Of a stretch of 64,000 bases of DNA, positions 30,532 through 61,947 are shown one piece after another (positions within the stretch are counted from its first letter, which is position 1; each line of letters begins with the position of its first letter). This DNA comes from Acidiphilium sp. PA (GTDB lineage Bacteria > Pseudomonadota > Alphaproteobacteria > Acetobacterales > Acetobacteraceae): positions 206,014 to 270,013 of the forward strand of contig NZ_JAIMBY010000003.1 of NCBI RefSeq assembly GCF_026191915.1, given 5' to 3'. The position numbers and the translations under genes are program-made. The notes beneath the pieces were generated by a model. That model saw nothing but the letters and a program-made list of their open reading frames with translations, was not told where the DNA came from and did not search any database.

Positions 30532-30647
30532 CTTCTTTTTTTCAAAAAAAAGAAGCAAAAAAACTTCTATTCCCTGGGTCCCCGGCGTTTACGCGCCGAC
30601 GACCCAAATTAAGAAAAGTTTTTTGCTACTTTTTTTCAAAAAAGTAG
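30532..30647. repeat. Palindromic intergenic repeat, copy 1 (full)
   Basis: Full copy of the CTTC repeat family, 116 bp, between convergent folE and pyc. Outer hairpins are CTTCT...AGAAG (30532-30555) and CTACT...AGTAG (30626-30647). The second carries a compensated T-to-A/A-to-T pair relative to other copies. The centre is a clean nested stem (GGGTC-CGGCG-loop-CGCCG-GACCC) bounded by an A-run on the left and a T-run on the right, the form of a bidirectional intrinsic terminator. Orientation matches copy 4. Confidence 0.85.
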
Positions 30648-30664
30648 CGCTTCCTTCCCTTCCC

Positions 30665-33600
30665 TTACGCCATTTCCACCAACAAATCCTTAGCCTCCAC
30701 CGCCTCACCCGGCTTCACATGCAGCGCCCTGACGCTGCCATCGCGCGGTGCGGCGATGCGGGTCTGCATTTTCATTGCCTCGATCGCGACCAGTGCGTCG
30801 CCCTGGCTGACGGACTGCCCCTCGCGCACCATGATGCTGGCGACGGTGCCCGGCATCGGCGCGCCGATCTCGCCGTCCTTACCGTCATCGGCCTTGCGCC
30901 TTGCAGCGCGGGTCGGCTTCACCGCGCGGTTCGGCACCACAACGACACGCGGCTGGCCGTTGAGTTCGAAAAACACCCGGACATTGCCGTCCTCATCGGT
31001 CTCACTCATCGTCTGCAGGCGCAGGATCAGCGTCTTGCCCGCCTCCATCTCGATGGCGATTTCATCGCCGGGCTGCATGCCGTAAAAATATACCGGCGTT
31101 GGCAGCACGCCGACCGGTCCATAGGTCCGCCGCGCCGCGCAATAGCCCGTGTAGACCTGTGGATACATCACATAGGCCGCCAGACCATCGTCATCGACCG
31201 GCCCGGCGCATTGTTCGGTCGCAGTGGCGCGCAATGCCTCGAGATCGGCCATCGGCAGCAGCGACCCTGGCCGCACGATGTAGGGTTCCTCGTCACGCAG
31301 TGCCTTGGCCTGCAACAGCCCGGGCCACCCGCCCGGCGGCTGGCCCAGATCGCCGCGCAGCATCTCGACTGCGGAGGCCGGAAACGCGATCTCCTTGGCG
31401 GGGTCGAGCACATCGCCGACTGTCAACCCCTGGCTGACCATCATCAGCGCCATGTCGCCCACCACTTTCGACGAGGGCGTGACTTTCACGATATCGCCGA
31501 ACATCATGTTCACGTCGCGATAGGTGCGCGAGATTTCGTGCCAGCGCTCGGCCAGGCCCAGCGAGCCGGCCTGCTCGCGCAGATTGGTGAACTGCCCGCC
31601 CGGCATTTCATGCAGATACACTTCGGACGCACCCGATTGCAGGTCGCTCTCGAACGCTGCGTACTGCGCCCGCACGGCCTCCCAATAAAAACTCAGATCG
31701 CGGATGACATCGGGATCGAGCCCTGTATCGCGATAGGTATGCCGCCATGCCTCGACCAGCGAACCCAGACAGGGCTGTGAGGTCAGGCCGGACATCGGGT
31801 CCATTGCCGCATCCACCGCATCCACCCCAGCCTCGACCGCGGCGAGCACGGTGGCGCCCGAAATGCCGGATGTATCATGCGTATGCAGGTGGATCGGCAG
31901 CCCGACCGCGTCCTTCAATGCCCGCACAAGCACGCCCGCGGCCGAGGGTTTCAGCACGCCGGCCATGTCCTTGATCGCGAGGATATGGCAGCCGGCCGCC
32001 TCAAGCTGTTTTGCCAGATCGACGTAATAGTTCAGCGAATATTTCGAGCGCGTCGGGTCGAGGATATCGCCGGTGTAACAAATTGCCCCCTCGGCGAGCT
32101 TGCCGGTTTCGAGTACCGCATCAATCGCGACGCGCATGTTCTCGACCCAGTTGAGACAGTCGAAAATCCGGAACAGATCGATCCCGTTCGCCGCGGCGCG
32201 CTGGACGAAGAACCGCACGATATTGTCGGGGTAATTGGTGTACCCGACGCCATTGGCACCGCGCAGCAGCATCTGCAGCAATATGTTGGGCGCGGCTGCG
32301 CGGATCGCGGCCAGCCGCTCCCACGGGCTTTCGGTCAGGAACCGCATCGCGACATCGAACGTTGCCCCACCCCAGCATTCCAGCGAGAACAGCCCGGGCA
32401 GCCCGACCGCGTAGGCGGGGGCCGCGGCAATGATGTCGTAACTGCGCATCCGGGTCGCCAGCAGTGATTGATGGGCGTCGCGCATCGTCGTGTCGGTGAT
32501 CAGCACGCGCGATTGCTGGCGCATCCAGGCGGCAAACCCCACCGGTCCCAGCTGATCGAGCAATTGTTTCGTGCCATCCGCCGGTTTGCCGGCGATGCGC
32601 GGCGCATCGGGCGTGCGGGCCGAGGCCAGCGGCTTGCGCTTGCCTTTGACATCGGGATGGCCGTTCACCGTCACATCCGCGACATAACGCAGCAGTCGCG
32701 TCGCCCGGTCGCGGCGCTTCGGCAAAGTGAACAGCTCCGGCGTGGTATCGATGAACCGTGTGGTGTAATCGCCCGCCTGGAACGCTGGATGCGTCAGCAG
32801 GGCCTCGAGGAACGGCAGGTTGGTGGTGACGCCACGGATGCGGTATTCGCGGAGCGCGCGCAGCATCCGCGCCGTCGCCTCGCCCGGCGAGGGGGCCCAG
32901 GCGGTCACTTTTTCCAGCAGCGCATCGTAGAACCGCGTTACCACTGCGCCCGAATAGGCGGTGCCGCCATCGAGGCGGATGCCGAAGCCGAACGCGCCAC
33001 GATAGGCCGAAATCCTGCCGTAATCGGGGATGAAATTATTCTCGGGATTCTCGGTGGTGATCCGGCATTGCAGGGCGTGGCCATCGAGCACGATGTCGGC
33101 CTGCGGCGGCACGCCGGTTTCGCCGACATCGCCGATATGGCCACCTTCGGCCACCTTGATCTGGGCTTTGACGATGTCGATGCCGGTGACCATTTCGGTG
33201 ACCGTGTGCTCGACCTGAATCCGGGGGTTGACCTCGATGAAGTAGAATTTGTTGGTATCGCGATCGAGCAGGAACTCGACCGTTCCGGCATTGCGATAAT
33301 CGGTCGCCCGGCCGATCGCGAGCGCAGCCTCGCACAGCGCAGCCCGCGTCGCAGCATCAAGATACGGCGCCGGCGCGCGTTCCACAACTTTTTGATGGCG
33401 CCGCTGGATGGTGCAGTCACGCTCGAACAGATGCACCAGATTGCCATGCGCATCGCCGAGCAACTGCACCTCGACATGCCGCGCGCGCTGGACGAGTTTC
33501 TCGATATAGACTTCATCATTGCCGAACGCCGCGTTCGCCTCGCGCCGCGCGGTGTTCAGCTCATCGATCAGCGTGGCCGCCGCCGCAATCGGCCGCATGC

Positions 33601-34108
33601 CGCGCCCGCCGCCGCCCCAGGAGGCTTTGAGCATGACCGGGTAACCGATCTCGGCCGCGATCGCATGGGTCGCCGTATCGTCATCGCTCAACGGCGGACT
33701 CGCGGGCATCACCGGCACGCCGACCGAAACGGCCAGGTTGCGCGCAGCGACCTTGTTGCCCAGCGTCCGCATGGTCGCGGGCAGCGGGCCGATGAAGACG
33801 ATGCCCGCATCCGCACAGGCCTCCGCGAAGTCGGGATTTTCCGACAGGAACCCATAACCCGGATGGATCGCATCCACCCGCGCCTCGACCGCAACGCGCA
33901 AAACTTCCTCGATCGATAAATATGCCTCGATCGGGCCCATCCCTTTGCCGATCAGATAAGCCTCGTCGGCCTTGAAGCGATGAAGTGACAGTTTATCCTG
34001 CTCGGCGTAGACGCCGATTGTCCGAATCCCCAATTCGGCTGCCGCCCGGAATACGCGAATGGCGATTTCGGACCGATTCGCCACCAACAGCCGACTGAAT
34101 TTTTTCAA
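30665..34108 (-). CDS. pyc: Pyruvate carboxylase
   Basis: Pyruvate carboxylase makes oxaloacetate from pyruvate and bicarbonate with ATP, the main anaplerotic route. The 1,147-residue protein has the full single-chain order. First is the biotin carboxylase domain (VANRSEIAIRVFRAA; ATP loop KASWGGGGRGMR; FIEVNPRIQVEH). Next is the carboxyltransferase barrel (TTMRDAHQSLLATRMR; LHTHDTSGISGA). Last is the C-terminal biotinyl domain (VAIEAMKMQTRI; modified Lys in AMKM). It ends facing folE across repeat copy 1. All domains look intact. Confidence 0.97.
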   Translation of the reverse strand: MKKFSRLLVANRSEIAIRVFRAAAELGIRTIGVYAEQDKLSLHRFKADEAYLIGKGMGPIEAYLSIEEVLRVAVEARVDAIHPGYGFLSENPDFAEACADAGIVFIGPLPATMRTLGNKVAARNLAVSVGVPVMPASPPLSDDDTATHAIAAEIGYPVMLKASWGGGGRGMRPIAAAATLIDELNTARREANAAFGNDEVYIEKLVQRARHVEVQLLGDAHGNLVHLFERDCTIQRRHQKVVERAPAPYLDAATRAALCEAALAIGRATDYRNAGTVEFLLDRDTNKFYFIEVNPRIQVEHTVTEMVTGIDIVKAQIKVAEGGHIGDVGETGVPPQADIVLDGHALQCRITTENPENNFIPDYGRISAYRGAFGFGIRLDGGTAYSGAVVTRFYDALLEKVTAWAPSPGEATARMLRALREYRIRGVTTNLPFLEALLTHPAFQAGDYTTRFIDTTPELFTLPKRRDRATRLLRYVADVTVNGHPDVKGKRKPLASARTPDAPRIAGKPADGTKQLLDQLGPVGFAAWMRQQSRVLITDTTMRDAHQSLLATRMRSYDIIAAAPAYAVGLPGLFSLECWGGATFDVAMRFLTESPWERLAAIRAAAPNILLQMLLRGANGVGYTNYPDNIVRFFVQRAAANGIDLFRIFDCLNWVENMRVAIDAVLETGKLAEGAICYTGDILDPTRSKYSLNYYVDLAKQLEAAGCHILAIKDMAGVLKPSAAGVLVRALKDAVGLPIHLHTHDTSGISGATVLAAVEAGVDAVDAAMDPMSGLTSQPCLGSLVEAWRHTYRDTGLDPDVIRDLSFYWEAVRAQYAAFESDLQSGASEVYLHEMPGGQFTNLREQAGSLGLAERWHEISRTYRDVNMMFGDIVKVTPSSKVVGDMALMMVSQGLTVGDVLDPAKEIAFPASAVEMLRGDLGQPPGGWPGLLQAKALRDEEPYIVRPGSLLPMADLEALRATATEQCAGPVDDDGLAAYVMYPQVYTGYCAARRTYGPVGVLPTPVYFYGMQPGDEIAIEMEAGKTLILRLQTMSETDEDGNVRVFFELNGQPRVVVVPNRAVKPTRAARRKADDGKDGEIGAPMPGTVASIMVREGQSVSQGDALVAIEAMKMQTRIAAPRDGSVRALHVKPGEAVEAKDLLVEMA

Positions 34109-34528
34109 GTTTCGCTCCGATCCGTTTTGGCTACGCGCCGAGCCGCTGGGGCAAGCTATGGTGACATAAACTTGCTGGCAAGCGAATTGTGCGGCGCGAC
34201 AAAACGCGGCCTATTGGATGCGCGGCATGGCTCCCTGGCCACCACCAAAGGCGGTGCGCGCGATCGGTACGGTTGGTGGCGTGGGCCTCGCCCTGCCATC
34301 GATCATCAGGGCGAGGGGCAGCGCGAGCGGCTTGGTGCTGCCGGGTGGTTACAGCGTATCCACGCTCCGACCTTGATGCGCGCCGGAGGATCGTGAGCCC
34401 GTGGCGTCTTCGGTGCGCATGCAAATGAGATCGGTCAGCGCGACGAACACGCTGCCGATGGCATGGTGGTTGGTCGCGCTATTGAAGCAGCGGAGGCCAG
34501 TCTTTTCAGTAGACGATAGACGTCGTTT
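34109..34528. other. 420-bp intergenic stretch without a supported gene
   Basis: This lies between pyc (start 34108) and the end of accC (34529), both leftward. Short open frames exist on both strands, but none has a ribosome site, a domain or a family-like sequence. On the minus strand at about 34378-34510 the frame containing FNSATNHHAIGSVFVALTD reads more like a protein than the rest and could be a decayed gene fragment; I cannot name it. The part next to pyc should hold the pyc promoter. Confidence 0.4.
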
Positions 34529-35875
34529 TTATGCCTTGTTCGCCGCGACGAACTGTTCCAGCCAGTGGATGCTATAGTCCCCACTCTGAAACTCCGCGTT
34601 CGCCAGAATCCGCAAATGCAACGGAATCGTAGTCTTGATTCCCGCGATTGCGAATTCTTCCAGTGCGCGGCGCATACGGGCGATCGCTTCGGGGCGGCTG
34701 CGGCCGTGAACGATCAGTTTGGCAACCAGGCTGTCGTAGTGCGAGGGCACGCGATAGCCGGCGTAGAGCGCCGAATCGAGCCTTACGCCAAGGCCGCCGG
34801 GCGCGTGGAACATGGTGACGGTGCCGGGCGACGGCGCGAAGGTTTCGGGATCTTCGGCGGTGATCCGGCATTCGATCGCGTGACCGGACACTGTCACGCC
34901 GGACTGGTCGTAGCCGAGCGGTTCGCCAAACGCGATGCGGATTTGTTCGCGCACCAGATCGACGCCGGTGACCATTTCCGTCACCGGATGCTCAACCTGC
35001 AGGCGGGTATTCATTTCGATGAAGGCGAACTGGCCGTCCTGATACAGGAATTCGAGCGTGCCGGCGTTGCGGTAGCCGAATTTTTCGAGCGCCTGGGTGG
35101 CAATGGCGCCGAGCGCGGTGCGCTCGGCGGCGGTGATGCCGGGTGAGCCGGCTTCTTCGAGCAATTTTTGATGGCGGCGCTGCAGCGAACAGTCACGCTC
35201 GCCGAAATGCAGGACCTTGCCATAATTATCGCCCAGCACCTGCAATTCGATATGGCGCGGCCGGTCGAGGTATTTTTCGATATACACCGAGTTGTTGCCA
35301 AACGCGGCGGCGGCCTCGGCGCGCGCGGTCGAAAACGCCTCGGCCACTTCATCGAGCGTATGCGCCACTTTCATACCGCGCCCACCGCCGCCGGCCGCCG
35401 CCTTGACCAGCACGGGGCAGCCGATCCGGCGGGCAACCTCGATCGCCGCCTCGACATCCGGCACTTCGCCGTCCGACCCGGGCACCAGCGGTACGCCAAG
35501 CTCGGCCATCGTGGTCTTGGCGGTTATCTTATCACCCATCATGCGGATGTGGGTGGGACTGGGTCCGATGAAGGTGAGACCGTGGGCTTCCACCATTTCG
35601 GCAAAATCGGCGTTTTCTGAAAGGAAGCCATACCCAGGGTGGATCGCCTCGGCGCCGGTGATCAGCGCGGCGGAGAGCAGGGCCGGCATATTGAGATAAG
35701 AATCGCGCGCGAGCGGCGGGCCGATGCACAGGCTTTCGTCGGCGAGGCGTACATGCATCGCATCGGCATCGGCGGTCGAGTGCACGGCCACTGTAGCGAT
35801 GCCCATTTCGCGGCAGGCACGCTGGACGCGGAGCGCGATTTCGCCGCGGTTGGCAATCAGGATTTTGCTGAACAT
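34529..35875 (-). CDS. accC: Acetyl-CoA carboxylase biotin carboxylase subunit AccC
   Basis: AccC carboxylates the biotin on AccB with ATP and bicarbonate, in the first step of fatty acid synthesis. The 448-residue protein starts [21 protein letters not shown], has the ATP-grasp loop [12 protein letters not shown] and catalytic stretches [20 protein letters not shown] and [16 protein letters not shown] start it at the ATG at 35873-35875; the longer frame is antisense or out of phase over accB. The start overlaps the accB stop by one base (TAATG). Confidence 0.97.
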
Positions 35876-36330
35876 TACTCGATGATCACCAGCGGTTCGT
35901 CGTATTCGACCGGCTGGCCGCCGGTGACCAGAATTTGCTTCACGGTGCCGGCACGCGGCGCCTTGATCTGGTTGAAGGTTTTCATCGCCTCGATCAGCAG
36001 CAGCGTCTGACCGGCCTCGACACTGGCGCCAACCGTGATGAACGGGGCGGCACTCGGCTCGGGGGCAAGGTAAGCGACGCCGACCATCGGCGATTTCACC
36101 GCACCAGGGTGCACGCCCATATCCTGCGCCGCCGCGACCTGCGGTGCGGGTGCGGGGACAGGGGTCGTCGGCGCCGTCATCATCGGTTGCATCATCGCTG
36201 ATGGTTGGGCCACCGCGCGGGCGAGGCGCAGCCGCCGGTCGCCCTCTTCCAGTTCGATCTCGCCGAGACCGCTCTCGTTCAACAAGGCTGCCAACTGGCG
36301 CAGCGCTTCGGGGTCGAAGGATAAACTCAT
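35875..36330 (-). CDS. accB: Biotin carboxyl carrier protein AccB
   Basis: AccB carries the biotin between AccC and the carboxyltransferase AccAD. The 151-residue protein has a helical N-terminus, a Pro/Ala/Met-rich linker (about 43-70) and a C-terminal biotinyl domain. The modified lysine sits in [16 protein letters not shown], and the domain shows the thumb typical of acetyl-CoA carboxylase BCCP. Its start overlaps the aroQ end by 4 bp, and its end overlaps accC by 1 bp, giving an aroQ-accB-accC operon. Confidence 0.96.
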
Positions 36331-36776
36331 GCTTCCTGCTCCACAATGTCGGCAATCGCCTGCAAGGCCAGCCGGTAGCCAGTGAACCCAAGCCCGCAGA
36401 TCACGCCGCGCGCTGCCATCGATATATAGGAATGGTGGCGAAATGCCTCGCGCGTGAAAATATTAGACAGATGAACCTCGATTATCGGCAGATCGACCGC
36501 GTGGAGCGCGTCCATCAGCGCGACCGAAGTATGCGAATAGCCCGCGGGATTGATAATGATGCCGGCGGCCCGGCCGCGGCATTCCTGGACCCAGGTAATC
36601 AACTCGCCCTCGCCGTTGGTCTGGCGGAAATCGATGGCAAGGCCCAACGGCTCGGCCGCCTCGGCACACACCGCCTCCAGATCGTCGAGCGTCTGGATGC
36701 CGTAGATTTCCGGCTCGCGTAGGCCGAGCAGATTGAGGTTAGGGCCGTTGAGCACGGCAATCAGGGGTTCCGCCAT
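36327..36776 (-). CDS. aroQ: Type II 3-dehydroquinate dehydratase AroQ
   Basis: AroQ dehydrates 3-dehydroquinate to 3-dehydroshikimate in aromatic amino acid synthesis. The 149-residue protein has the family start [19 protein letters not shown] with the catalytic tyrosine, [13 protein letters not shown], the [13 protein letters not shown] loop, [19 protein letters not shown], and the ending [15 protein letters not shown]. It heads aroQ-accB-accC, a common alphaproteobacterial arrangement. Confidence 0.96.
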
Positions 36777-36862
36777 CCGCCGCGCCTAGCACAAGGCGAT
36801 GGGTCGGCCAACTGTGCCGGGCTGGCGGACGAACAGGCAGGGGACAGCAGAGGAGGTCTCTT

Positions 36863-36978
36863 CTTCTTTGTGAACAAAAAAGAAGCAAAAAAACTTTCTT
36901 AATTCTGGCCCGTGCCCGCGACAACACCCGTACCCCAGATCAAATAAAGTTTTTTGCTTCTTTTTTTCAAAAAAGAAG
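36863..36978. repeat. Palindromic intergenic repeat, copy 2 (full)
   Basis: Full 116-bp member of the CTTC repeat family, between aroQ (start 36776) and epmB (end 36999), both leftward. The left hairpin (36863-36885) has a CTTCTTT/AAAGAAG stem, and the right one is CTTCT...AGAAG (36957-36978). The inner arms contain GGCCCGTGCC and CCCGTACCCCAGA, with the A-run and T-run on either side. Orientation matches copy 7. The tail GCGCTTCCTTCC after the right hairpin is shared with copy 1. Confidence 0.85.
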
Positions 36979-36998
36979 CGCTTCCTTCCTTACACCCC

Positions 36999-37946
36999 TC
37001 AGCCCAACACGGTCTTCCCGCCCGCCGCATCGAGGATGTAATGCGGCAGAGCGGTGCCCGAAACCGTGCCGCGCAGCGCGGCGAGCAGGGCGCGGCCTTC
37101 GGCGATCGGCACGTGAAACCGGGCGGTGCCGGGTGCGGGGTCGAGCTGGTGGAGGTAGTAGGGTTTCACCCGGCAGGACAGCATGGTTTCGAACAGATCG
37201 CGTAGCGCGGCCTCGGAATCATTGACGCCGCGCAGCAGCACGGATTGGCCGAGGACCGGTATGCCGCCGTAGCGCAGGCGGGCCAGTGCGTCCCGCGCGG
37301 CAGCGGTGAATTCGCTGGCGTGGTTGGCGTGCAGCACGATGAACAGCGGCGTCTCGGTATCGAGGGTCTCGACCAGGGCGCCGGTAATGCGTTCCGGCGC
37401 GGCCACCGGCACGCGGGTGTGAATGCGCAGGCGCTTGACATGCCTGATAGCGGAGAGGCGGGTAAGGATGTCATCGAGCCGTCGTTGCGACAGGATCAGC
37501 GGATCGCCGCCGGTCAGGATGATCTCGGCGATGGCCGGATGACCCGCGATCCAGCCGATCGCGGCATCGAGTTCGGTGTCGTTCAGGACACCGCCGTCCG
37601 GCCCGACATGCTCGCGCCGAAAGCAGAAGCGGCAATAGACCGGGCACGCCAGGGTTGGTTTCAACAGCGCGCGGTCGGGGTAGCGGTGGACGATGCCCTT
37701 GATCGGCGAGAGCGCATCATCGCCGATCGGATCAGCGCTTTCATGGGCGGCCCGCGTCAGTTCTGCCGGATCGGGGATGAATTGCAGGCCGATCGGGTCG
37801 GTGCGAGCGGTGATCAGCGCGGCCATGCCGGGTGGGATTGCCGTGGCGTAACGCGCGGCGACGGCGGTGAGCGCTGCCCGCGCGGCCGGCGGGACGAGGC
37901 CGGCCGCGATCAGGTCTTCGGGGGTGCGGAGTGTGCGCAAACTCAT
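36999..37946 (-). CDS. epmB: EF-P lysine 2,3-aminomutase EpmB
   Basis: EpmB is a radical-SAM/PLP enzyme that makes (R)-beta-lysine for modification of elongation factor P. The 315-residue protein has the radical-SAM cluster motif CPVYCRFCFRRE, the ILTGGDPLILSQRRL stretch, and the PLP region LFIVLHANHASEFT. At 315 residues it has the short EpmB size rather than that of catabolic KamA (about 400+). It is divergent from epmA with only 23 bp between start codons, which strongly supports the EF-P role. Confidence 0.92.
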   Translation of the reverse strand: MSLRTLRTPEDLIAAGLVPPAARAALTAVAARYATAIPPGMAALITARTDPIGLQFIPDPAELTRAAHESADPIGDDALSPIKGIVHRYPDRALLKPTLACPVYCRFCFRREHVGPDGGVLNDTELDAAIGWIAGHPAIAEIILTGGDPLILSQRRLDDILTRLSAIRHVKRLRIHTRVPVAAPERITGALVETLDTETPLFIVLHANHASEFTAAARDALARLRYGGIPVLGQSVLLRGVNDSEAALRDLFETMLSCRVKPYYLHQLDPAPGTARFHVPIAEGRALLAALRGTVSGTALPHYILDAAGGKTVLG

Positions 37947-37969
37947 GCTGCGGTGCTATCCGCTGATGC

Positions 37970-38974: not shown

Positions 38975-39051
38975 AATTCTTCCGAAACACTGGGGTTACA
39001 CCAGATCAATACCATATCACATAAATAGAATTCATCCTGATGGAGCGCACG

Positions 39052-48933: not shown

Positions 48934-48979
48934 CCCCCAGCTTAAAAAAGTTTTTTGCTTCTTTTTTCCAAAAAAGCAG
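48934..48979. repeat. Palindromic intergenic repeat, copy 3 (right half only)
   Basis: This matches only the right half of the family as oriented in copy 7: CCCCAG, an A-run, GTTTTTTG, then a CTTCT...AGCAG hairpin with one mismatch. It ends 25 bp before the stop of the MoaD-like gene and probably terminates it. The 190 bp to its left (48741-48933) hold nothing I can identify beyond possible insertion-sequence debris. Confidence 0.75.
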
Positions 48980-52742: not shown

Positions 52743-52861
52743 CTTCTTTTTTGTAAAAAAGAAGCAAAAAACTTTCTGACCCTGGGGCACGGGCGTGTGA
52801 AGCGGCACGAGCCCAAATTAACGAAGTTTTTTTTGCTTCTTTTTTGTTCACAAAAAAGAAG
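52743..52861. repeat. Palindromic intergenic repeat, copy 4 (full)
   Basis: Full 119-bp copy between phaZ and the rhodanese gene, both rightward. Hairpins are at 52743-52764 and 52836-52861. The inner left arm (CTGGGGCACGGGCG) is the reverse complement of the inner right arm of copy 7, so this copy is inverted relative to copies 2 and 7 and has the same orientation as copy 1. Confidence 0.85.
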
Positions 52862-53300: not shown

Positions 53301-53348
53301 GCCCCAGATTCAAAAAAGTTTTTTGCTTCTTTTTTTCCAAAAAAGAAG
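53301..53348. repeat. Palindromic intergenic repeat, copy 5 (right half only)
   Basis: GCCCCAGATTC, an A-run and a GTTTTTTG, followed by the hairpin CTTCT...AGAAG, match the right half of copy 7. It starts 24 bp after the rhodanese stop. The small GC stem GGGCGAAACCGCCC at 53286-53299 precedes it, so it is a plausible terminator for that gene. Confidence 0.75.
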
Positions 53349-54755: not shown

Positions 54756-54763
54756 GGAAGGAA

Positions 54764-54888
54764 GGCGAGGGGCTCTCTCCCTCGCCGGTTCCGCTGATCT
54801 GGCCCGGGTCGCCCTTCCCTTGCCTGAAACGAATGGACTTTAAAGGCTCCGCCTTTCACGGGGGGCCAGAGGGCAGAGCCCTCTGGCC
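54764..54888 (+). repeat. Three hairpins between binding-protein and permease genes
   Basis: The 175-bp gap holds GGCGAGGG-loop-CCCTCGCC (54764-54786), AAAGGC-TCC-GCCTTT (54842-54856) and GGCCAGAGGG-CAGAG-CCCTCTGGCC (54864-54888). The last is followed by TTCTTCCC. Hairpins in this place commonly shield the binding-protein mRNA and lower read-through, so that the binding protein is made in excess over the membrane parts. Confidence 0.65.
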
Positions 54889-54930
54889 TTCTTCCCACAC
54901 CGCCTAACCCCGCATCGGTCAGGAGTTGTC

Positions 54931-55908
54931 ATGAGTGCGACTACACTAACGTTCCGGCAACGCGGCACCAAGCTGCTGGCTTTGCGTGAGGCCAGCATCA
55001 TCGTGGTCGCGCTGGTGCTGGTTATCTACTTCTCGGTCGTCAACGCCAATTTCCTGACCGGGCCGAACCTGCAGACCTTGTCGCAGTTCATTGCGCCGTC
55101 GGCGATCATTGCGTGTGGCGAGATCATGCTGTTGATCTGCGGCGAAATCGATCTTTCGGTCGGGCAGATTTTCGCGCTGGCGCCGTTCATCATGGCATTC
55201 ACCGATCATGCAGGTCTAGGCATGTTCGTGGGCTTCGTGTTCGCGATGATCGTCTCGGCTTTGGTGGGTCTGATCAACGGCGCGATTACGGTGCTGCTGA
55301 AAGTGCCAAGTTTCGTCACGACACTCGGCACGCTGTTTCTGATCAACGGGTTTACCCTGACGGTCTCGAAAGGATATCCGATCAACACGCCGGGCGGCCA
55401 AACCATGGCCAATATTTTTGGTGCTGCAGGATATAACGAATTTCTCTGGGCAGTTCTGATCGTGGTCATCATGCACGTGGTGCTGCGCCATCGCCGGTGG
55501 GGCCTGCATACGATTGCGGTGGGCGGCAATCTGACCGGGGCGACCGAGGCCGGGATCAATGCTGCGCGAATCAAGATCGGCAATTTCATGTTGACCAGCA
55601 TGCTCGGCGGCATCACGGGTATTCTCGAAGCCTTCCGGATCGGCTCGACCGATCCGCTGGCCGGCGGCACCAACATCATGTTCCTTGCGGTGGCTTCGGG
55701 CGTGATCGGCGGAACGTCGCTTGCGGGCGGATCGGGCACCATCATCGGCGGGTTGATCGGCGCTACGGTGCTGGGGGTGTTGCAGGATGGGTTCACCTTG
55801 CAGGGCATCAATGCTTTCACATTCGACATGATTATCGGCGCCGCCATCCTGATCGCGATGATTGCGAACATTCACGTCGGGCGGCTGAACCGCGGGGGAA
55901 GGTCATGA
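54931..55908 (+). CDS. Sugar ABC transporter permease (RbsC/FrcC-like)
   Basis: The 325-residue permease has eight to ten membrane segments. It carries the family stretches IACGEIMLLICGEIDLSVGQ, VPSFVTTLGTLFLINGFTL, GGNLTGATEAGINAARIKIG and VASGVIGGTSLAGGSGTIIG. The pair of Gly-rich late motifs is typical of the ribose/fructose/galactose branch. Its stop overlaps the ATPase start (ATGA). Confidence 0.93.
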   Translation: MSATTLTFRQRGTKLLALREASIIVVALVLVIYFSVVNANFLTGPNLQTLSQFIAPSAIIACGEIMLLICGEIDLSVGQIFALAPFIMAFTDHAGLGMFVGFVFAMIVSALVGLINGAITVLLKVPSFVTTLGTLFLINGFTLTVSKGYPINTPGGQTMANIFGAAGYNEFLWAVLIVVIMHVVLRHRRWGLHTIAVGGNLTGATEAGINAARIKIGNFMLTSMLGGITGILEAFRIGSTDPLAGGTNIMFLAVASGVIGGTSLAGGSGTIIGGLIGATVLGVLQDGFTLQGINAFTFDMIIGAAILIAMIANIHVGRLNRGGRS

Positions 55909-56663
55909 GCACGGAGTCGCTGCGGGCGACCGATATCACCAAGAGCTTCGGCAACATATCAGCATTGTCTGGAATCTCGCTCCACGTGAACAAGGGTGAG
56001 GTGCTCGGCATTCTGGGTGACAACGGCGCCGGCAAATCGACGCTGATGAAGATCATCACCGGATATCACAAGCCGACTTCGGGGCAGATGTTCATCAACG
56101 GCGAGGCGGTCACGCTGACGTCGGTGGATCATGCGCGCAGCCTGGGGATCGAGTGCGTCTACCAGGACCTGGCGCTGGTCAATACGCTGCCGATCTATCA
56201 CAACATGTTTTTGAACCGTGAACTGCGCAACCGGTTCGGCATGCTCGATCATGGGGCGATGCGCAAACGCGCGGCGGCGGCGCTCGATGATATCGGGGTG
56301 CAGGTGCCATCGGTCGATGACGAGGTGGCGATGCTGTCGGGCGGACAGCGCCAGGCAATCGCGATTGCGCGGGCGGTGTACTCCAACGCGAAAATACTCC
56401 TGCTCGACGAGCCGTTAGCGGCGATGGGCGCACGCGAAGCAGGCTTGATCATCGACCTGATCCAGCGCCAGCAGGCGCGCGGCGATATTTCGATCATCAT
56501 GATCATGCACAATTATGCTCAGACCTTGGAAATCGCGGATCGTATCATGATGATGCAGCGCGGTACCGTGACCTTCGAGGGAAATGCCAGGGACACCTCG
56601 GTCGAGGCCTTGCTCGACATCGTCCGGCGGGAATATCGCGCGATGCGCGCGGCAGCACAGTGA
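55905..56663 (+). CDS. Sugar ABC transporter ATP-binding protein (single domain, FrcA-like)
   Basis: The 252-residue ATPase has Walker A (GDNGAGKST), Q-loop (VYQDLALVNTL), signature LSGGQRQAIAIAR, Walker B (ILLLDEPLAAMG) and an H-loop His (IMHNYAQTLEIAD). It has one nucleotide-binding domain, as in FrcA, rather than the doubled form of RbsA/MglA, so two copies must act per transporter. I start it at 55905 (MSTESLRATDIT), overlapping the permease stop. Confidence 0.93.
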   Translation: MSTESLRATDITKSFGNISALSGISLHVNKGEVLGILGDNGAGKSTLMKIITGYHKPTSGQMFINGEAVTLTSVDHARSLGIECVYQDLALVNTLPIYHNMFLNRELRNRFGMLDHGAMRKRAAAALDDIGVQVPSVDDEVAMLSGGQRQAIAIARAVYSNAKILLLDEPLAAMGAREAGLIIDLIQRQQARGDISIIMIMHNYAQTLEIADRIMMMQRGTVTFEGNARDTSVEALLDIVRREYRAMRAAAQ

Positions 56664-56670
56664 GAGTGAC

Positions 56671-57441
56671 ATGACGGAAATTCAGAACGCGATTTATCCC
56701 AGCCTGCGCGGCCGCGCCGTGTTCATCACCGGCGGCGGCGGCGGTATCGGCGCTTCTCTGGTCCGGCATTTCGTCGAGCAGCACTGCAAAGTCGTATTCG
56801 TCGATATCGATCAGTCGGGCGGCGAGGCGGTGGTACGGGATGTCGCGGGCGATCACCCGGCGCCCATGTTCATTCAATGCGATCTGCGCGACATTGCCGC
56901 CCTCAAGGCGGCGATCGCCAAAGGTCGCGATGCGGTCGGCGATTTCACCGTGTTAGTGAATAATGCCGCGCATGACGAACGCCACGATACGATGGACGTG
57001 ACGCCGGAATACTGGGACGAACGGCTGGCGGTTAATCTGCGGCACCAGTTTTTCGCCGCCCAGGCGATCATTCCGATGATGCAGGCCGCGGGTGGCGGCG
57101 CGATCGTGAATTTCGGGTCGACCAGCTGGCATCTGAGCCAGGGCGGCATGCCGGCCTATGTGACGGCGAAAGCGGGCATCGAGGCGCTCACCCGCAGCCT
57201 CGCACGCGACTACGGACCCGACGGCATTCGCGCGAATTGCATCTTACCAGGCTGGATCATGACAAAACGCCAGATCGAGAAATGGCTGACGCCGGAGGGT
57301 GAAGCCGATCTGCTTAAGCGCCAATGTCTGAAGGAGAAGCTGGCACCGGCCGATTGCGCCCGGATGGCGCTGTGGCTCGCCGCGGACGACAGCCGGTTGA
57401 TCACGGCGCATAATTTCTACGTCGATGCCGGAGCGGTCTGA
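56671..57441 (+). CDS. SDR-family sugar dehydrogenase
   Basis: The 256-residue protein is a classical short-chain dehydrogenase with cofactor loop ITGGGGGIGASL, an acidic residue after VVFVDID that favours NAD, LVNNAAH, the catalytic serine region VNFGSTSW and the pair YVTAK. Lying between a sugar transporter and dgoK/dgoA, it is a candidate D-galactose 1-dehydrogenase making galactonolactone; substrate identity is inferred from context only. I start at ATG 56671 (MTEIQNAIYP), 7 bp after the ATPase gene. Confidence 0.82.
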   Translation: MTEIQNAIYPSLRGRAVFITGGGGGIGASLVRHFVEQHCKVVFVDIDQSGGEAVVRDVAGDHPAPMFIQCDLRDIAALKAAIAKGRDAVGDFTVLVNNAAHDERHDTMDVTPEYWDERLAVNLRHQFFAAQAIIPMMQAAGGGAIVNFGSTSWHLSQGGMPAYVTAKAGIEALTRSLARDYGPDGIRANCILPGWIMTKRQIEKWLTPEGEADLLKRQCLKEKLAPADCARMALWLAADDSRLITAHNFYVDAGAV

Positions 57442-57459
57442 GCCGGCCGGCACGGCGCA

Positions 57460-58341
57460 ATGATCGGCGTCGATTGGGGCACCACATCGCTGCGCGCATG
57501 GCGGCTGGACCAGGAGGGTTCGGTGCTCGACCGGCGCGCGTCGCCGCAGGGTATCATGACGATAACAGACCGTCAGTTCGAGCCGGTGCTGCGCGACATT
57601 GTGGGAGACTGGCTGGCGGACGGCGAACGCCATATCCTGTTATGCGGCATGATCGGCAGCCGGCAAGGCTGGCACGAAGTCGCCTATCTGTCCTGCCCGG
57701 CCGGGATCGATGAGATCGCGGCGCGACTGACCCCGGTTGCCTTCGCGGGCGCGGCGGTTCGGATCGTTCCCGGTCTCGCCACGATCGATGAAAACGGCAT
57801 CGCCGACATCATGCGCGGCGAGGAGACCCAGATTCTCGGTGCCGCCGCAAGCGACGGGGCGACGCGCAGGATCTGCCTGCCCGGTACCCATTCGAAATGG
57901 GCCGCGGTGTCGGCCGGGCGGATCGAGCGGTTCAGCACCTATATGACCGGTGAAATGTTCGCGGCCCTGGCGCAGCATACGATCCTGGCGCGCACCACCG
58001 TGGCCGGGCCGATCGACCCGGCAGCATTCACCGCCGGCGTGGCGCGCGCTGCGGATACGGGCGGGTTGCTGCACCATGCGTTCGGCGTGCGTACCCAGGT
58101 GCTGCGCCAGGGCATGACCGAGGCGGCGGCTTATGCCTATCTGTCCGGGTTGATGATCGGTCATGAGTTGAACGCGGCGCTCGATAGCGTCGCCACGCCG
58201 GTGGCCGTGGTCGGTGCGAGCGCGCTGGCGGCGCTGTATGTAACGGCGATCGCTTCACGCGGCGGTGTGGCGATTGCAGTGGATGAGGCGGCCGGTGCCA
58301 CCGGGCTGGCACGATTGGGAGCACGCGCAACATGGACCTGA
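57460..58341 (+). CDS. dgoK: 2-dehydro-3-deoxygalactonokinase
   Basis: DgoK phosphorylates 2-keto-3-deoxygalactonate in the DeLey-Doudoroff pathway. The 293-residue protein starts MIGVDWGTTSLRAWRLDQEG, the phosphate-1 motif of the family. It has HILLCGMIGSRQGWHEVAY, LPGTHSKWAAVSAGRIERF and AVVGASALAALYVTAI. Its end overlaps dgoA by 10 bp. No galactonate dehydratase or lactonase gene lies in this operon. Confidence 0.92.
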   Translation: MIGVDWGTTSLRAWRLDQEGSVLDRRASPQGIMTITDRQFEPVLRDIVGDWLADGERHILLCGMIGSRQGWHEVAYLSCPAGIDEIAARLTPVAFAGAAVRIVPGLATIDENGIADIMRGEETQILGAAASDGATRRICLPGTHSKWAAVSAGRIERFSTYMTGEMFAALAQHTILARTTVAGPIDPAAFTAGVARAADTGGLLHHAFGVRTQVLRQGMTEAAAYAYLSGLMIGHELNAALDSVATPVAVVGASALAALYVTAIASRGGVAIAVDEAAGATGLARLGARATWT

Positions 58342-58955
58342 AATCATGCCTCGCTGCATCGCCCTTGATCGCCATTTTGCGTGGCGTGACGCCGGACGAG
58401 GTCGAGGCGATCGGCGATGTGCTGGTCGCCGCGGGGGTACGGGTGATCGAGGTCCCGCTGAACTCGCCCGATCCGTTGGAAAGTATCTCCCGCCTCGCAC
58501 GGCGGTTCGGCGCGACGACACTGATCGGCGCGGGGACGGTGATGACGCCAGCAGATGTCACCGCGGTGGCCGATGCAGGTGGGCGGATTATCATCACGCC
58601 GCACGCCGATCCAGCGATCGTGGCGGCGGCAAAGGCACAGGATCTTCAGGCCGCACCAGGGTTTTTCACACCGGCCGAAGCGTTTGCGCTGCTGGCGGCG
58701 GGGGCGGATGCGCTGAAGCTGTTTCCCGCCGAGGCTGGCAGCCCGGCGATGCTGCGGGCGATCCGCGCGGTGCTGCCTGCGGGCACGATGGTGCTGCCGG
58801 TGGGCGGGATCGCACCGGATAACATGGCGCCCTGGCGCGCGGCCGGTGCGGCCGGGTTCGGCATCGGCGGGTCGTTGTATCAGCGTGGCGACACGCCAAC
58901 CCAGGTTGCGGCAAAGGCCGCGCGGTTTTCGGCAGTGCTGGCCGCGCAAAACTGA
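58332..58955 (+). CDS. dgoA: 2-dehydro-3-deoxy-6-phosphogalactonate aldolase
   Basis: DgoA cleaves 2-keto-3-deoxy-6-phosphogalactonate to pyruvate and glyceraldehyde-3-phosphate. The 207-residue class I aldolase has LIAILRGVTPDEVEAIGDVL with its catalytic Glu, LIGAGTVMTPADV, APGFFTPAEAFALLAAGADA, the Schiff-base lysine in ALKLFPAEAG and VLPVGGIAPDNM. It is coupled to dgoK by a 10-bp overlap and ends the operon, 25 bp from the convergent arsH. Confidence 0.94.
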   Translation: MDLKSCLAASPLIAILRGVTPDEVEAIGDVLVAAGVRVIEVPLNSPDPLESISRLARRFGATTLIGAGTVMTPADVTAVADAGGRIIITPHADPAIVAAAKAQDLQAAPGFFTPAEAFALLAAGADALKLFPAEAGSPAMLRAIRAVLPAGTMVLPVGGIAPDNMAPWRAAGAAGFGIGGSLYQRGDTPTQVAAKAARFSAVLAAQN

Positions 58956-58980
58956 TCCTCTCTCAACCGCCGGCGGCGGA

Positions 58981-59673
58981 TCAGAGGCGGGAAGTATCGT
59001 GGCTCGCTTGTCTGCGTTCGCTGTAGCGATCCACCAGATAGGGGGCGCGGTCGCGCAGCAGCAGGGTAAAGCGGATCAGTTCTTCCATCACGTCGACCAA
59101 CCGGTCGTAATAGGGCGAGGCGAGCATACGGCCGGCGTCGTCGAATTGTTCGTAGGCCTTGGCGACGCTCGATTGGTTGGGAATGGTGACCATGCGCATC
59201 CACCGCCCGAGCAGGCGCAGAGTATTGACCGCATTGAAACTCTGAGAGCCACCGGAAACCTGCATGACCGCAAGCACCCGGCCCTGGGTCGGGCGGACGG
59301 CGCCGAGTTCGAGCGGAATCCAATCGATCTGGTTTTTAATGACACCGGTAATCGCACCGTGCAATTCCGGGCTGCACCAGACCTGCGCCTCCGACCAGAT
59401 CGACAGATCGCGCAATTCCGCGACCTTCGGATGATCCGCCGTGGTAGTGTTGGTGATCGGCAGATCGCGCGGGTCGAAGATGCGGGTTTCCGCCCCCATC
59501 AGATCGAGCAGCCGGGCCGCTTCCTCCGTCAGCAGACGCGAATAGGAGCGGGTCCGCAGCGAACCGTAAAGCAGCAGAACGCGCGGTTTATGGGTCGCGC
59601 GTGTGGTGGGTTCCAGGCGAACAAGGTCTGGCGGAGCAAGCAGGTCAGGCTGCAAAGCGGGCATGTCATCCAT
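58981..59673 (-). CDS. arsH: NADPH-dependent FMN reductase ArsH
   Basis: ArsH is a flavodoxin-like NADPH:FMN reductase that oxidises organoarsenicals in many ars operons. The 230-residue protein has the FMN loop [35 protein letters not shown] (family EYHGxITG-like), and [18 protein letters not shown] start at the ATG at 59671-59673 ([12 protein letters not shown]), giving an 8-bp overlap with the arsB end. It is the last gene of the leftward ars operon. Confidence 0.93.
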
Positions 59674-60985
59674 GGGCGGTCGATCCCACGATCGGCAGCC
59701 ACACGGCAAGGGCTGCAAGGGTCGCAATCAGGACCGGCGGGGTGATCAGCAGGCCGATTTTCATGTATTGGCCCCAGCTGATCGTCGTGCCCTTTTGCGC
59801 CAGCACGTGGAGCCAGAGCAGCGTGGCGAGGCTGCCGATCGGGGTGAATTTCGGCCCCAGGTCGCAGCCGATGATATTCGCGTAGACCATGGCATCATGG
59901 ATCGGCGGCGCAACGTTCGGCAGATGTTCGATGGCGAGGGCGCCAACCAGAACGCTCGGCATATTGTTCATGATCGATGACAGAACTGCGGCGAGAATGC
60001 CGGTGCCGAGCGCGGCGGTCCAGATGCCGTGGGCGGCGAACAATTGGAGGGCGGCGGCAATGTGGTCGGTCAGACCGGCGTTGCGCAGCCCGTAGACCAC
60101 CAGATACATCCCGAGGCTGAAAATGACGACTTGCCAGGGCGCGCCTTGCAGAATGCGACGAATGTCAATGATCGGCCGGCCGGGGGTGAACAGGCGCGCC
60201 GCGATGGCAAGCAGCAGCAGGGCGGCGATGATGGTAACGAAGGAGACCGGAATACCGAGCGGTGCGGTAATGAAATAGGCCGCCAGCAGTATCAGCAGAA
60301 TCGGCCAGGCGGCACGGAACACCAACGCGTCGCGGATCGCCGTCTTGGGCATGTCCAGCGCCGCAACCGCGTAGTCTCGATCGACGGTGCGGCGGTAGAG
60401 CAGGCCGAGCACCGCGAGCGTGGCGAGCAGCGCGATTATGTCGACCGGGATCATCACCAAGGCGTACCGGTCGAACCCGATGTGAAACACATTGGCGCTG
60501 ACGATGTTGACCAGATTGGAAATCACCAGCGGCAGGCTGGTCGTATCGGCAACAAAGCCGGTCGCGATGATAAAGGCGAGGGCGGCGGCCGGCGGAAACG
60601 CAAGACTCAGCAGAATCGCCATCACGATCGGGGTAAGCAACAATGCGGCACCGTCGTTGGCGAAGATCGCGGCGATACCGGCGCCCAGCAGCACGATCAA
60701 CGGCAGCAGAATATGCCCCCGCCCGCGGCCCCAGCGTGCCACATGCAGCGCAGCCCAACGGAACAGCCCGGCTTCATCGAGCAGAAGCGAAATGATGATC
60801 AGGGCAATGAAGGTGAACGTCGCATTCCAGACGATATGCCAGACCGTAGGAATGTTGCGCCAGTGAATGATGCCGAACGCCAGATCGACCACGGCGCCGG
60901 CCATCGCACTCCAGCCGATGCCGAGGCCACGGGGTTGCCAGATGACCAGGGTCAGTGTGGCGATAAAGATCGCGAGAGCAATCAT
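59666..60985 (-). CDS. arsB: Arsenite efflux transporter ArsB
   Basis: ArsB extrudes arsenite (and antimonite) across the inner membrane. The 439-residue protein has about 12 hydrophobic segments. Family stretches are [55 protein letters not shown] and [21 protein letters not shown]. It follows arsC at a distance of 62 bp that holds a half copy of the CTTC repeat. Confidence 0.94.
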
Positions 60986-61007
60986 GGGGAACGTGAAGTA
61001 AAGAAGG

Positions 61008-61045
61008 CTTCTTTCTTGTAAGAAAGAAGCAAAGAACTTCTATTG
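61008..61045. repeat. Palindromic intergenic repeat, copy 6 (left half only)
   Basis: A perfect 22-bp hairpin (CTTCTTTCTT-GT-AAGAAAGAAG) followed by CAAAGAACTTCTATT matches the left half of copy 1. Compared with other copies it has a paired T-to-C/A-to-G change that keeps the stem. It sits inside the ars operon between arsC and arsB. Confidence 0.75.
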
Positions 61046-61047
61046 GT

Positions 61048-61398
61048 TTAGGTTAGGAGGGTTTTTACTGTTTCGGAGGGGCGGCAGAGTCTTACGGCTT
61101 CGGCGGTAACCACGATGGGCCGGTTGATCAGAATGGGATGTGCCATCATGGCATCCAACAACACATCATCGGACAGGTTTTCATCATCCAGGCCAAGCTC
61201 GGCGTAAGGCGTGCCCTTTTCACGTAGCAAGGCCCGGACCGGAATGCCCATGCGGGCTATCAGGCCGGTCAGTTCCGCGCGGCTGGGCGGCGTTTTCAGA
61301 TATTCGATGACGGTCGGTTCGATCCCCGCCGCGCGGATCAAATCGAGCACGTTGCGCGAGGTACCACAGGCCGGATTGTGATAGATGGTGACGTTCAT
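61048..61398 (-). CDS. arsC: Arsenate reductase ArsC (glutaredoxin type)
   Basis: Reduces arsenate to arsenite. The 116-residue protein starts MNVTIYHNPACGTSRNVLDL, with the catalytic cysteine in the NPxCGTSRN loop. It also has EYLKTPPSRAELTGLIA and HPILINRPIVVTAEAVRLCRP, the arginine-bearing stretch of the ArsC family. I start at the ATG at 61396-61398, which overlaps the arsR stop by 4 bp. Confidence 0.95.
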   Translation of the reverse strand: MNVTIYHNPACGTSRNVLDLIRAAGIEPTVIEYLKTPPSRAELTGLIARMGIPVRALLREKGTPYAELGLDDENLSDDVLLDAMMAHPILINRPIVVTAEAVRLCRPSETVKTLLT

Positions 61399-61760
61399 GC
61401 CGTTTGCGCCTGATTGAAATCGGTTTGGACTGGCGCACACGGAGCGCATGCCACCACGCCCTGGCCGCAGCAGTTTTGCATCAGAAAGCCGATGAAGCCG
61501 TTCATTGCAGCAAAATCGGCTGCATAAATCACATGGCGGCTCGCACGGCGCTGGGTAACCAACCCCGCGCGAAGCAAAGCCTGGATATGAAAAGTGAGCG
61601 ACGAAGGCACAAGCCCGAGCCGCGCGGCAATCTCCCCCGCAGCCACGCCGGGCGGACCGGCTTCGACCAGCAGGCGATAGGCGGCGAGACGGTGCTCATG
61701 CGCCAGAGCGGCAAGGGCGGTGACCATCCAATGGGGGTCGGGTTGGTTTGACGTTTCCAT
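61395..61760 (-). CDS. arsR: ArsR-family transcriptional repressor
   Basis: ArsR represses the ars operon until it binds arsenite. The 121-residue winged-helix protein shows LAALAHEHRLAAYRLLVEAG, the recognition helix LGLVPSSLTFHIQALLRAGL and VTQRRASRHVIYAAD. A cysteine group near the C-terminus (NCCGQGVVACAPCAP) fits an As(III) site of the kind known from Acidithiobacillus and Corynebacterium ArsR, rather than the classic CxCxxC in the helix. It heads arsR-arsC-arsB-arsH. Confidence 0.93.
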   Translation of the reverse strand: METSNQPDPHWMVTALAALAHEHRLAAYRLLVEAGPPGVAAGEIAARLGLVPSSLTFHIQALLRAGLVTQRRASRHVIYAADFAAMNGFIGFLMQNCCGQGVVACAPCAPVQTDFNQAQTA

Positions 61761-61828
61761 GATTATCGAAATGAGGAAATATCGGGGTGGGGCGGAGCTG
61801 TCAAGGCAAGGTTTGACGGGGAGGGAGT

Positions 61829-61947
61829 CTTCTTTTTTGTGAACAAAAAAGAAGCAAAAAAAACTTTGTTAATTTGGGCCCGAGCCGATGAAAACGCCCG
61901 TGCCCCAGAGTCAAAAAGTTTTTTGCTTCTTTTTTACAAAAAAGAAG
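61829..61947. repeat. Palindromic intergenic repeat, copy 7 (full)
   Basis: Full 119-bp copy upstream of arsR. Hairpins at 61829-61854 and 61926-61947 flank a stem with arms TTTGGGCCCGAGCC and CGCCCGTGCCCCAGA, bounded by an A-run and a T-run. It is the reference orientation used here; copy 2 matches it, and copies 1 and 4 are inverted. Being upstream of arsR it cannot end that operon; it may insulate it from transcripts coming from the right. Confidence 0.85.

Follow-up and report, generated by a model that had tools for sequence, protein, structure and literature searches.

Introduction

Intrastrand-triplex motifs consist of consecutive Y, R and R' blocks, or their complement, where the third block is able to pair with the first two by Hoogsteen bonds. 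In E. coli such motifs are known as BoxC, PIT or TM_ECO, and in the sections of PMC4666352 on which we rely they are described as multicopy and always intergenic. The ITxF criteria, given in the same sections, ask for stems of 6-15 nt and loops of 1-6 nt (PMC4666352). Bacterial triplex motifs have hitherto been known as sequence patterns, with doubtful function and doubtful formation in the cell. A second group of related systems is the REP, BIME and REPIN sequences. According to the parts of the literature consulted, these are hairpin units, often in inverted pairs, found in extragenic convergent and tandem gaps downstream of coding regions (PMC3733652, PMC2817692, PMC8266576), and the element described here shares all of these properties.

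Here we describe a repeat from Acidiphilium sp. PA. Each of its halves looks like an A/T-rich member of the motif class described for BoxC/PIT/TM_ECO, as judged from the sequence and from those sections of PMC4666352. In the literature searched we found no description of this repeat. A text match to four of its core strings returned one string, once, in work on Leptospira adhesins.

Results

Copies in the window

The window is the whole stretch of 64,000 nucleotides that was analysed. The original prediction had listed seven copies of the repeat in it, four full and three half, and all seven are present at those coordinates. Each half consists of a hairpin (a 4-bp foot and an N-bp core), one linker base and a purine run of N bases. 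A full copy is an inverted pair of halves, in most cases one with a long and one with a short core, and is assigned to no strand.

The first full copy (30532..30647) lies between convergent genes. Its long-core half (30532..30563, + strand) has a hairpin at 30532-30555 with an 11-bp stem, i.e. the 4-bp foot plus N=7, followed by the linker C at 30556 and the mirror run A7 at 30557-30563. The short-core half (30619..30647, - strand) has a hairpin at 30626-30647 with N=6 and a run at 30619-30624 (A6 on the - strand); its foot is CTAC/GTAG, an altered pair that is locally compensated. The second full copy (36860..36978) lies in a tandem gene pair and adjoins the upstream stop. It was originally placed at 36863-36978 but may start at 36860, counting a 12-bp stem with one mismatch. 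With this start its long-core half (36860..36893, + strand; hairpin 36860-36885, run A7 36887-36893) is the only half in the window that departs from the length rule below, as stem minus run is 5. Its short-core half (36950..36978, - strand) has a hairpin at 36957-36978 with N=6 and a six-base run at 36950-36955.

The third full copy (52743..52861) begins 18 bp after a stop codon, and the same site is occupied in the congener G005. The short-core half comes first here (52743..52771, + strand; hairpin 52743-52764, N=6, run A6 52766-52771), followed by the long-core half (52827..52861, - strand) with a 12-bp stem and N=8 in the hairpin 52836-52861 and a run at 52827-52834 (A8 on the - strand). 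The fourth (61829..61947), in a tandem gene pair, is made of a long-core half (61829..61863, + strand; hairpin 61829-61854, 12-bp stem, N=8, run A8 61856-61863) and a short-core half (61919..61947, - strand; hairpin 61926-61947, N=6, six-base run 61919-61924). Over a length of 123 nt this copy is 93% complementary to copy 52743.

Two of the half copies are on the - strand. At 48934-48979 the half itself covers 48951..48979, with a 10-bp stem containing one mismatch in the hairpin 48958-48979 and a six-base run at 48951-48956; at 53301-53348 it covers 53319..53348, with the hairpin at 53326-53348 (N=6) and a six-base run at 53319-53324. The third, at 61008-61045, is of the G-bearing type and is also found in G005. 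Its half (61008..61036, + strand) has the hairpin CTTCTTTCTT/AAGAAAGAAG at 61008-61029, and the run AAAGAA at 61031-61036 is the mirror of its own stem.

All four full copies have a better predicted fold than any of 200 shuffled versions of themselves, with z from -5.3 to -6.8. Rfam gave no match in the window. With genes called by our own gene finder all seven copies are intergenic, as had been claimed, and six have a stop codon at most a few tens of bases away, the exception being 61829, about 290 bp from the upstream stop. The claim that the photosynthesis cluster (1-22756) is free of copies is also borne out by the scan, since no copy was found before 30532. The proposed anatomy, in which A-run and T-run arms flank a GC-centred stem between two outer hairpins, was correct as a sketch but incomplete. 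The two arms are not mainly each other's partners, because their lengths are equal in only 2 of 63 full copies; instead, each arm matches its own hairpin.

Distribution

A 20-nt half pattern with at most two mismatches found 121+146 = 267 half-sites in the 4.54-Mb genome, against 1+0 for the reversed pattern. This excludes chance, and with at least 113 separate places in the genome matched by the model the family is clearly not confined to the window, so that the prediction is not refuted by its own test of absence from the rest of the genome. Within the bacterial family, Acetobacteraceae, no fewer than 65 of 200 genomes carry the element. Loci were also found in Clostridia and Nitrospirae; being picked by an N=6 pattern, their halves are mostly 6/6, and the only one with a G in the stem core (L428) has it mirrored in the run.

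The purine run mirrors its own hairpin

The purine run is nearly always the mirror of the purine strand of the hairpin core, a rule that was overlooked in the original prediction. In the discovery set the run is as long as the core in 154 of 168 halves, compared with a mean of 44% and a maximum of 54% in shuffles. The same detector was then applied to a test set of 60 stretches from 15 previously unused genomes in 11 genera, two of which (g5 and g21) have another member in the discovery set. Here the length rule held in 116 of 118 halves (at most 70% in within-genus shuffles), and the informative G patterns were mirrored in 19 out of 19 cases and directly copied in none of the 19. Pooling all sets, stem minus run equals 4 in 701 of 750 halves, with 49 exceptions. 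The G pattern is mirrored in 108 of 112 and broken in the other four, and a C in the purine arm corresponds to an A in the run in 87/87 cases. Among the detector controls, a block shuffle gave a single match, with equal lengths, and reversal gave 13 matches, none of them equal.

Core N is mostly 6-8 (range 5-8) and the loop mostly 2 nt, while the 4-nt foot and the linker form a second loop of 5 nt. The element thus falls within the ITxF sizes, apart from the N=5 cores, which are below the limit. Its halves also have the consecutive Y, R and Hoogsteen-capable third block of an intrastrand-triplex motif. Direct copying of the arm, or in-register Watson-Crick pairing, was rejected as an origin of the run, as neither yields a mirror and direct copies number 0/112. 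Since Watson-Crick templating gives no mirror and Hoogsteen triple-strand pairing does, the halves look like an A/T-rich intrastrand-triplex motif. The rule points to a triple-stranded fold: with a run that matches its own stem in both length and mirror order, a half would likely fold in this way.

As the two halves of a copy drift apart in sequence, the hairpin of each stays paired within itself. Among 23 full copies from other genera, mismatches are found in 3 of 460 local pairs versus 79 of 460 cross-half pairs. Minimum-energy folding, with a tool that is ignorant of triplexes, favours one long hairpin over the whole copy. This long-range fold is contradicted by the sequence changes, as the cells changed on both sides number none for the extended structure and five for the local hairpins, and it was rejected. 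In the imperfect stems, 19 wobbles favour the Y strand and 11 the R strand, which is not significant (p 0.20).

Placement relative to genes

Where examined, the element is intergenic and nearly always next to a gene end. The 33 elements assigned in 464 kb are divided into 12 convergent, 20 tandem and 1 divergent; divergent gaps make up about one third of the free intergenic bases in this set. For full copies the corresponding numbers are 18/42/3 in this genome (63 copies) and 64/94/1 elsewhere (159 copies, with surrounding genes called by a model trained on this genome), so that only 4 of 222 overall lie between divergent genes. This placement may merely reflect the harm of insertions elsewhere.

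If an RNA acted in one sense, full copies in tandem pairs would be expected to be oriented. The long half is distal in 27 of 38 tandem pairs in this genome (p 0.014), in 19/28 outside the stretches first inspected (p 0.087) and in 40/74 in the other sets. The last figure indicates that there is no general orientation bias, and a bias with transcription, weak in this genome and absent in the others, was dropped. Certain single halves point the wrong way for their own gene.

Discussion

A predicted cap at transcript ends

We propose that the halves fold as triple-stranded hairpins that would cap the 3' ends of the transcripts of flanking genes, a prediction to which we give an even chance. The structure is supported by covariation in the sequences; we infer that the triplex forms in the cell, that RNA is what acts and that the function is capping. 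From centre to edge, a half reads Y'(N)-G-CTTC-Y(N)-loop-R(N)-GAAG. Y(N) and R(N) form the hairpin by Watson-Crick pairing, as the compensatory changes support, and Y'(N), running parallel to R(N), would sit in the major groove via Hoogsteen pairing. The covariation suggests a third-strand code of T on A-T, C+ on G-C and, opposite a purine-strand C, again T. The constant 4-bp foot and 1-nt linker would enable the third strand to span the deep groove. As the halves point towards one another, transcripts arriving from left or right would each end with one half read from centre to edge, and the element would serve both neighbours. Clamped onto the A-U hairpin, the third strand would resist 3'-5' nucleases and help to stop or seal the message.

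According to PMC4666352, RNA is able to form pyrimidine-type triplexes but not purine-type ones. As counterpoints, the same paper reports E. coli PIT elements to be without promoter or terminator activity, and their footprinting gave little sign of an in-cell triplex (PMC4666352). The wider idea that U.A-U triple helices encoded in the genome seal bacterial messages, and that they have travelled as paired cassettes across Acetobacterales and also occur in certain gut Clostridia, is more tentative.

Alternative explanations

The alternative that survives best is a mobile single-stranded DNA element. Hairpin and mirror run would be the folded end recognised by an HUH-type transposase, whether RAYT or not, the long and short halves the two ends, and gene ends the least harmful insertion sites; taken together we find this unlikely. 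Half-site counts do range from 0 to 314 across congeners, and one intergenic copy in G002, between genes that resemble pth and ychF, is missing in G003 and G004. This is the single filled/empty comparison made, too diverged to show a target duplication. In size (about 120-140 bp), inverted ends, dispersal and the absence of visible coding capacity the element resembles a MITE. Unlike for a MITE, no target-site duplication and no autonomous partner or parent transposase was noticed in the stretches read. Long/short pairs are polar, CTTC8|CTTC6 in 27/38 cases in this genome and CTTC7|GTTC6 in 7/7 in G091, but equal-core copies exist (6|6 in 6/7 of G212).

A PF01797 search of this genome gave no match, but it is blind to RAYT, whose score of 20.5 bits falls short of the cut-off of 23; RAYTs were found when searching with a RAYT protein and NF047646. 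RAYT matches occur in the five congeners richest in the element and in none of the eight poorest, three of which have other Y1 transposases. Among the 200 family genomes the element is found in 22/41 with RAYT and in 43/159 of the others (Fisher p 0.002, relatedness ignored), so that 43 of the 65 carriers are without a RAYT match and 22 have one. Of the 30 RAYT loci scanned, 13 have a half no more than about 250 bp away. However, halves near RAYTs have no fixed orientation, and in the four loci viewed GTAG-headed repeats are nearer to the RAYT than the halves, which at one of these loci are about 0.9 kb off. As this association is only moderate, a RAYT-driven REP is kept as a rival. The suggestion that the element is REP-like holds for the arrangement of paired inverted hairpin units in extragenic positions downstream of genes, but not for membership of the tagged REPs. 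Against membership stands the near absence of the tags beside the hairpin (GTAG in 8 and CGTC in 1 of 762 halves), and no RAYT dedicated to the element came to light among the matches in the 22 carriers. Compared with REP, BIME and REPIN as far as the consulted parts describe them, the element also differs in its A/T-rich, mostly perfect stems, its mirror run and its RAYT-less carriers.

An ordinary family of bidirectional intrinsic terminators, the other function originally suggested, is unlikely. In that case the terminator would consist of the A-run and T-run arms on either side of the GC centre, with U-runs supplied by the outer hairpins and the mirror rule as a by-product. The location of copies behind stop codons and in convergent gaps fits this, as do the near-symmetry and the correct order of A-run, GC stem and T-run in full copies. 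Most copies nevertheless fail a simple consensus scan and their stems are A/T-rich. The hairpins that pass are isolated ones of 52743 and 61008 and one abutting the 48934 half, while 30532, 36863, 53301 and 61829 fail. In addition, the inner arms are of unequal length in 61 of 63 full copies, single halves are common to G005 at the same sites, and the mirror pattern is left unexplained. The extra hairpins also set the element apart from such terminators.

Least probable is a structure acting in the DNA itself, a triplex or cruciform at which replication would stall or which would mark the borders of genes, and which would make the genome unstable, as proposed for TM_ECO. The motif class is the same, TM_ECO loci vary more among strains according to the text consulted (PMC4666352), and G000 and G005 differ in gene content at two or more of the element sites; yet 8 of 9 sites in one aligned 79-kb stretch are common to this genome and G005 at about 92% identity (hand tally), so most loci there are stable, and the near absence from divergent gaps is unexpected for a purely structural DNA mark.

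Comparison with known triplex motifs

The element and TM_ECO both have Y, R and a third pairable block on one strand with short loops, and by the classes in the consulted text of PMC4666352 the present motif would be class II on one strand and class IV on the other. Five of the TM_ECO pairs are inverted, always of type A with type B, where the present element mostly pairs a long with a short core. TM_ECO has a G/C-rich sequence and stems of 9 nt, and its copies are more often found upstream of genes (PMC4666352). The BoxC/TM_ECO consensus CCCTCNCCC..GGGNGAGGG..GGGNGAGGG is not matched by the present element, which by direct reading is A/T-rich, with N=5-8, a constant 4-bp duplex foot and a 1-nt linker. 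Its position is downstream of genes, its halves are frequently paired, and the third strand changes along with the length of the stem and the place of the G. Neither "compensatory" nor "covariation" appears in the main text of PMC4666352.

Hundreds of copies of the present element provide natural variation in the length of the stem and the place of the G, and nearly always the third strand changes to match. Such tracking amounts to evolutionary evidence for a joint reading of three strands, and the variants are a ready set of matched and mismatched molecules for a direct triplex test. Triple-helix caps are known from certain eukaryotic and viral RNAs. Should the element act as RNA, the predicted cap would be a 3'-end structure of a new type for bacterial genes and, if true, a bacterial counterpart of these caps, with the hairpin of each transcript clamped by its own third strand.

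Occurrence of the element

The original prediction of seven copies, all lying between genes, was borne out. The four full copies (30532-30647, 36863-36978, 52743-52861 and 61829-61947), each an inverted pair of halves, and the three single halves (48934-48979, 53301-53348 and 61008-61045) are all present, and our own gene calls place them in intergenic DNA. The family is not a product of chance: the half pattern, allowing at most two mismatches, has 267 sites in the 4.54-Mb genome (G000) against one for the reversed pattern. The proposed covariance-model scan, with a model built on 17 full copies, gave at least 150 matches, counted on both strands, at no fewer than 113 separate places. An Rfam search of the window matched no family.

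Four of the model matches are 198 bp long (G000:C1:129-326, C56:145837-146034, C56:182628-182825 and C45:108963-109160), and the first contains a tandem duplication of its centre. A palindrome like GTTACGATATCGTAAC, perhaps an operator, adjoins some copies (upstream of G000:C1:254837; beside stretch L117 in genome G030). The neighbouring window regions 33042-33553 and 34845-35329 share DNA stretches of 71-80% identity and are probably paralogous genes.

Structure of a half

From outer to inner, a half consists of a purine-rich tract, a hairpin (a 4-bp foot and a core of N pairs), one C, a purine run and CTT. Over 17 full copies one foot pair is U-A in 13, G-C in three and A-U in one, with local pairing kept, while the alternative long fold is disrupted at this varying pair. 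Mismatches affect 3/460 local pairs vs 79/460 cross-half pairs in 23 full copies of other genera, and 15/960 vs 30/960 in 48 copies of G000, although the hairpin finder leans somewhat towards local pairing. On these counts, each hairpin of the element maintains its own pairing.

With the foot excluded, the core has N pairs and the purine run after it exactly N bases. This length rule is obeyed by 154 of 168 halves in the discovery set, where shuffled partners give a mean of 44% and a maximum of 54%. The same detector found it in 116 of 118 halves of new genomes (60 stretches from 15 previously unused genomes and 11 genera, two of these genera, g5 and g21, having another member in the discovery set). 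It holds for 141/157 halves within G000 and 10/11 within the window. Stem minus run equals 4 in 701 of 750 pooled halves, a figure inflated by 264 and 105 halves from contigs selected by the N=6 pattern; in genome contigs not so selected the rule holds in 100/119. All mirror-rule counts take only stems with at least nine perfect pairs, and they are not independent events, as copies are related by descent. The rule holds within a half: only 2/63 full copies have runs of equal length.

The bases follow the same mirror. An asymmetric G in the purine strand of the core is matched by a run G at the mirror position in 19/19 cases in the new genomes and 108/112 pooled, and at the direct-copy position in none of the 112 pooled informative halves. 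Five distinct G patterns are mirrored, one of them from a Clostridia genome.

A probable triplex-capable element

Watson-Crick templating yields identity or the reverse complement, not a mirror, and dimeric proteins usually recognise inverted rather than mirror repeats. A third strand bound by Hoogsteen rules demands exactly this mirror order. The 5' block of the pyrimidine strand would lie parallel to the purine strand of the stem, T binding A-T pairs and C binding G-C pairs. The invariant 4-bp foot with its one-base linker would, by the geometry we infer, suit 5'-side entry of a third strand into the major groove. The published pyrimidine code pairs T with CG (T.CG), and all 87 cells (87/87) with a purine-strand C have a third-strand T opposite, a weak agreement since the run is A by default. 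From sequence, the half is very probably a triplex-capable structure.

Pairing, placement and function

In the majority of full copies one half has a long core (N=7-8) and the other a short core (N=6): CTTC8|CTTC6 in 27/38 of G000, CTTC8|GTTC6 in 6/8 of genome G069 and CTTC7|GTTC6 in 7/7 of genome G091. Exceptions with equal cores are found in genomes G212 (6/7 copies) and G163 (3/3).

Among 33 assigned elements in 464 kb (two more were not assignable), 12 are convergent, 20 tandem and one divergent, where the free intergenic bases number 6391, 20974 and 13622, respectively. The 63 full copies of G000 with flanks divide into 18, 42 and 3; 34 of the 42 tandem copies have the upstream stop no more than about 34 bp away. 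In the other sets, where genes were called with a G000-trained model, 159 full copies divide into 64, 94 and 1.

Placement and symmetry point to a role at transcript ends. According to PMC4666352, the triplex possible in RNA is of the pyrimidine type. A transcript from either side of a full copy would carry one such half at its far end. Against this role, PIT elements are reported there to lack terminator activity, and no general orientation bias relative to transcription was found among the sets examined. Wobble pairs fail to distinguish the two strands, which also counts against this role. RNA capping by the element is a tentative proposal, somewhat short of an even chance; for the combined statement, a triplex-capable structure with RNA capping, we put the chances at even.

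Distribution and dispersal

Counts of the half pattern in 13 congeneric genomes are 267 in G000, 147 in G001, 234 in G002, 314 in G005 and 35 in G012, with 0 to 14 sites in the remaining eight. Scanning other Acetobacteraceae, as had been suggested, located the element in 65 of 200 family genomes and 37 of 102 genera, using filters that miss weak matches. It was found in none of 24 genomes from other families of the class.

The exact 33-base half is found on at least 118 contig stretches, chiefly of Acetobacteraceae and Rhodospirillales, including Gluconacetobacter and Roseomonas, and in a few gut Clostridia, one Nitrospirae bin and one 'Acidobacteria' bin. The element is present on a contig named Acidiphilium. 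Ten genomes with exact-half matches hold 9 to 1,389 half-sites each vs 0-2 for controls. The highest count seen, 1,389 in 4.3 Mb, belongs to the bin labelled Acidobacteria (G239, stretch L257), whose contigs, those read, have 63-65% GC; it may be a mislabelled member of Acetobacterales. The exact half also lies on 63 viral-contig stretches (L351-L413), where phage DNA and host flank are both possible.

A G002 copy between pth-like and ychF-like genes is missing in G003 and G004, where the aligned flanks are 32 and 23 bp apart; the spread of the element is therefore real. In our reading, the upstream gene takes its stop codon from the outer tract of this copy. Between G000 and its congener G005, 8/9 element sites are, by our tally, shared in one aligned 79-kb stretch, and the window copies at 52743 and 61008 match base by base. 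The majority of the compared sites predate the split of the two genomes.

As a candidate driver, the REP-associated transposase RAYT has matches in the five richest congeners (5/5) and in none of the eight poorest (0/8), three of which carry other Y1 transposases. Family-wide, the element is present in 22/41 RAYT genomes vs 43/159 others. At four inspected RAYT loci, GTAG-headed repeats are closer to the gene than halves are.

The PF01797 cut-off misses this RAYT group and alone would wrongly give no RAYT in G000. That genome has an open-frame RAYT at C67:106542-107033 (L148), with GTAG-headed repeats on both sides and a half-element just outside, and five additional matches, all partial. In G005, two half-elements and several GTAG-headed REPs enclose a RAYT gene (L065:13600-14300, contig C44), in a block absent from the aligned place in G000. 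At G000:C1:302657-305241 (L046), a chloride-channel (Voltage_CLC) gene has a half-element on each side, the two facing one another; this gene is missing at the aligned place in G005.

Comparison with known elements

The two large REP groups carry GTAG or CGTC tags, according to PMC3733652. The predicted REP-like nature fails for tagged REPs, as such a tag occurs in just 9 of 762 halves. A search of the literature, with subscription papers mostly outside its coverage, found no description of this repeat. The nearest known class is the intrastrand triplex motif of E. coli, BoxC/PIT/TM_ECO (PMC4666352). Every inverted pair of TM_ECO combines a type A with a type B member, which resembles the long and short halves mostly joined here. 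Our element differs from that class in its composition, its duplex foot, its position after genes and its covariation.
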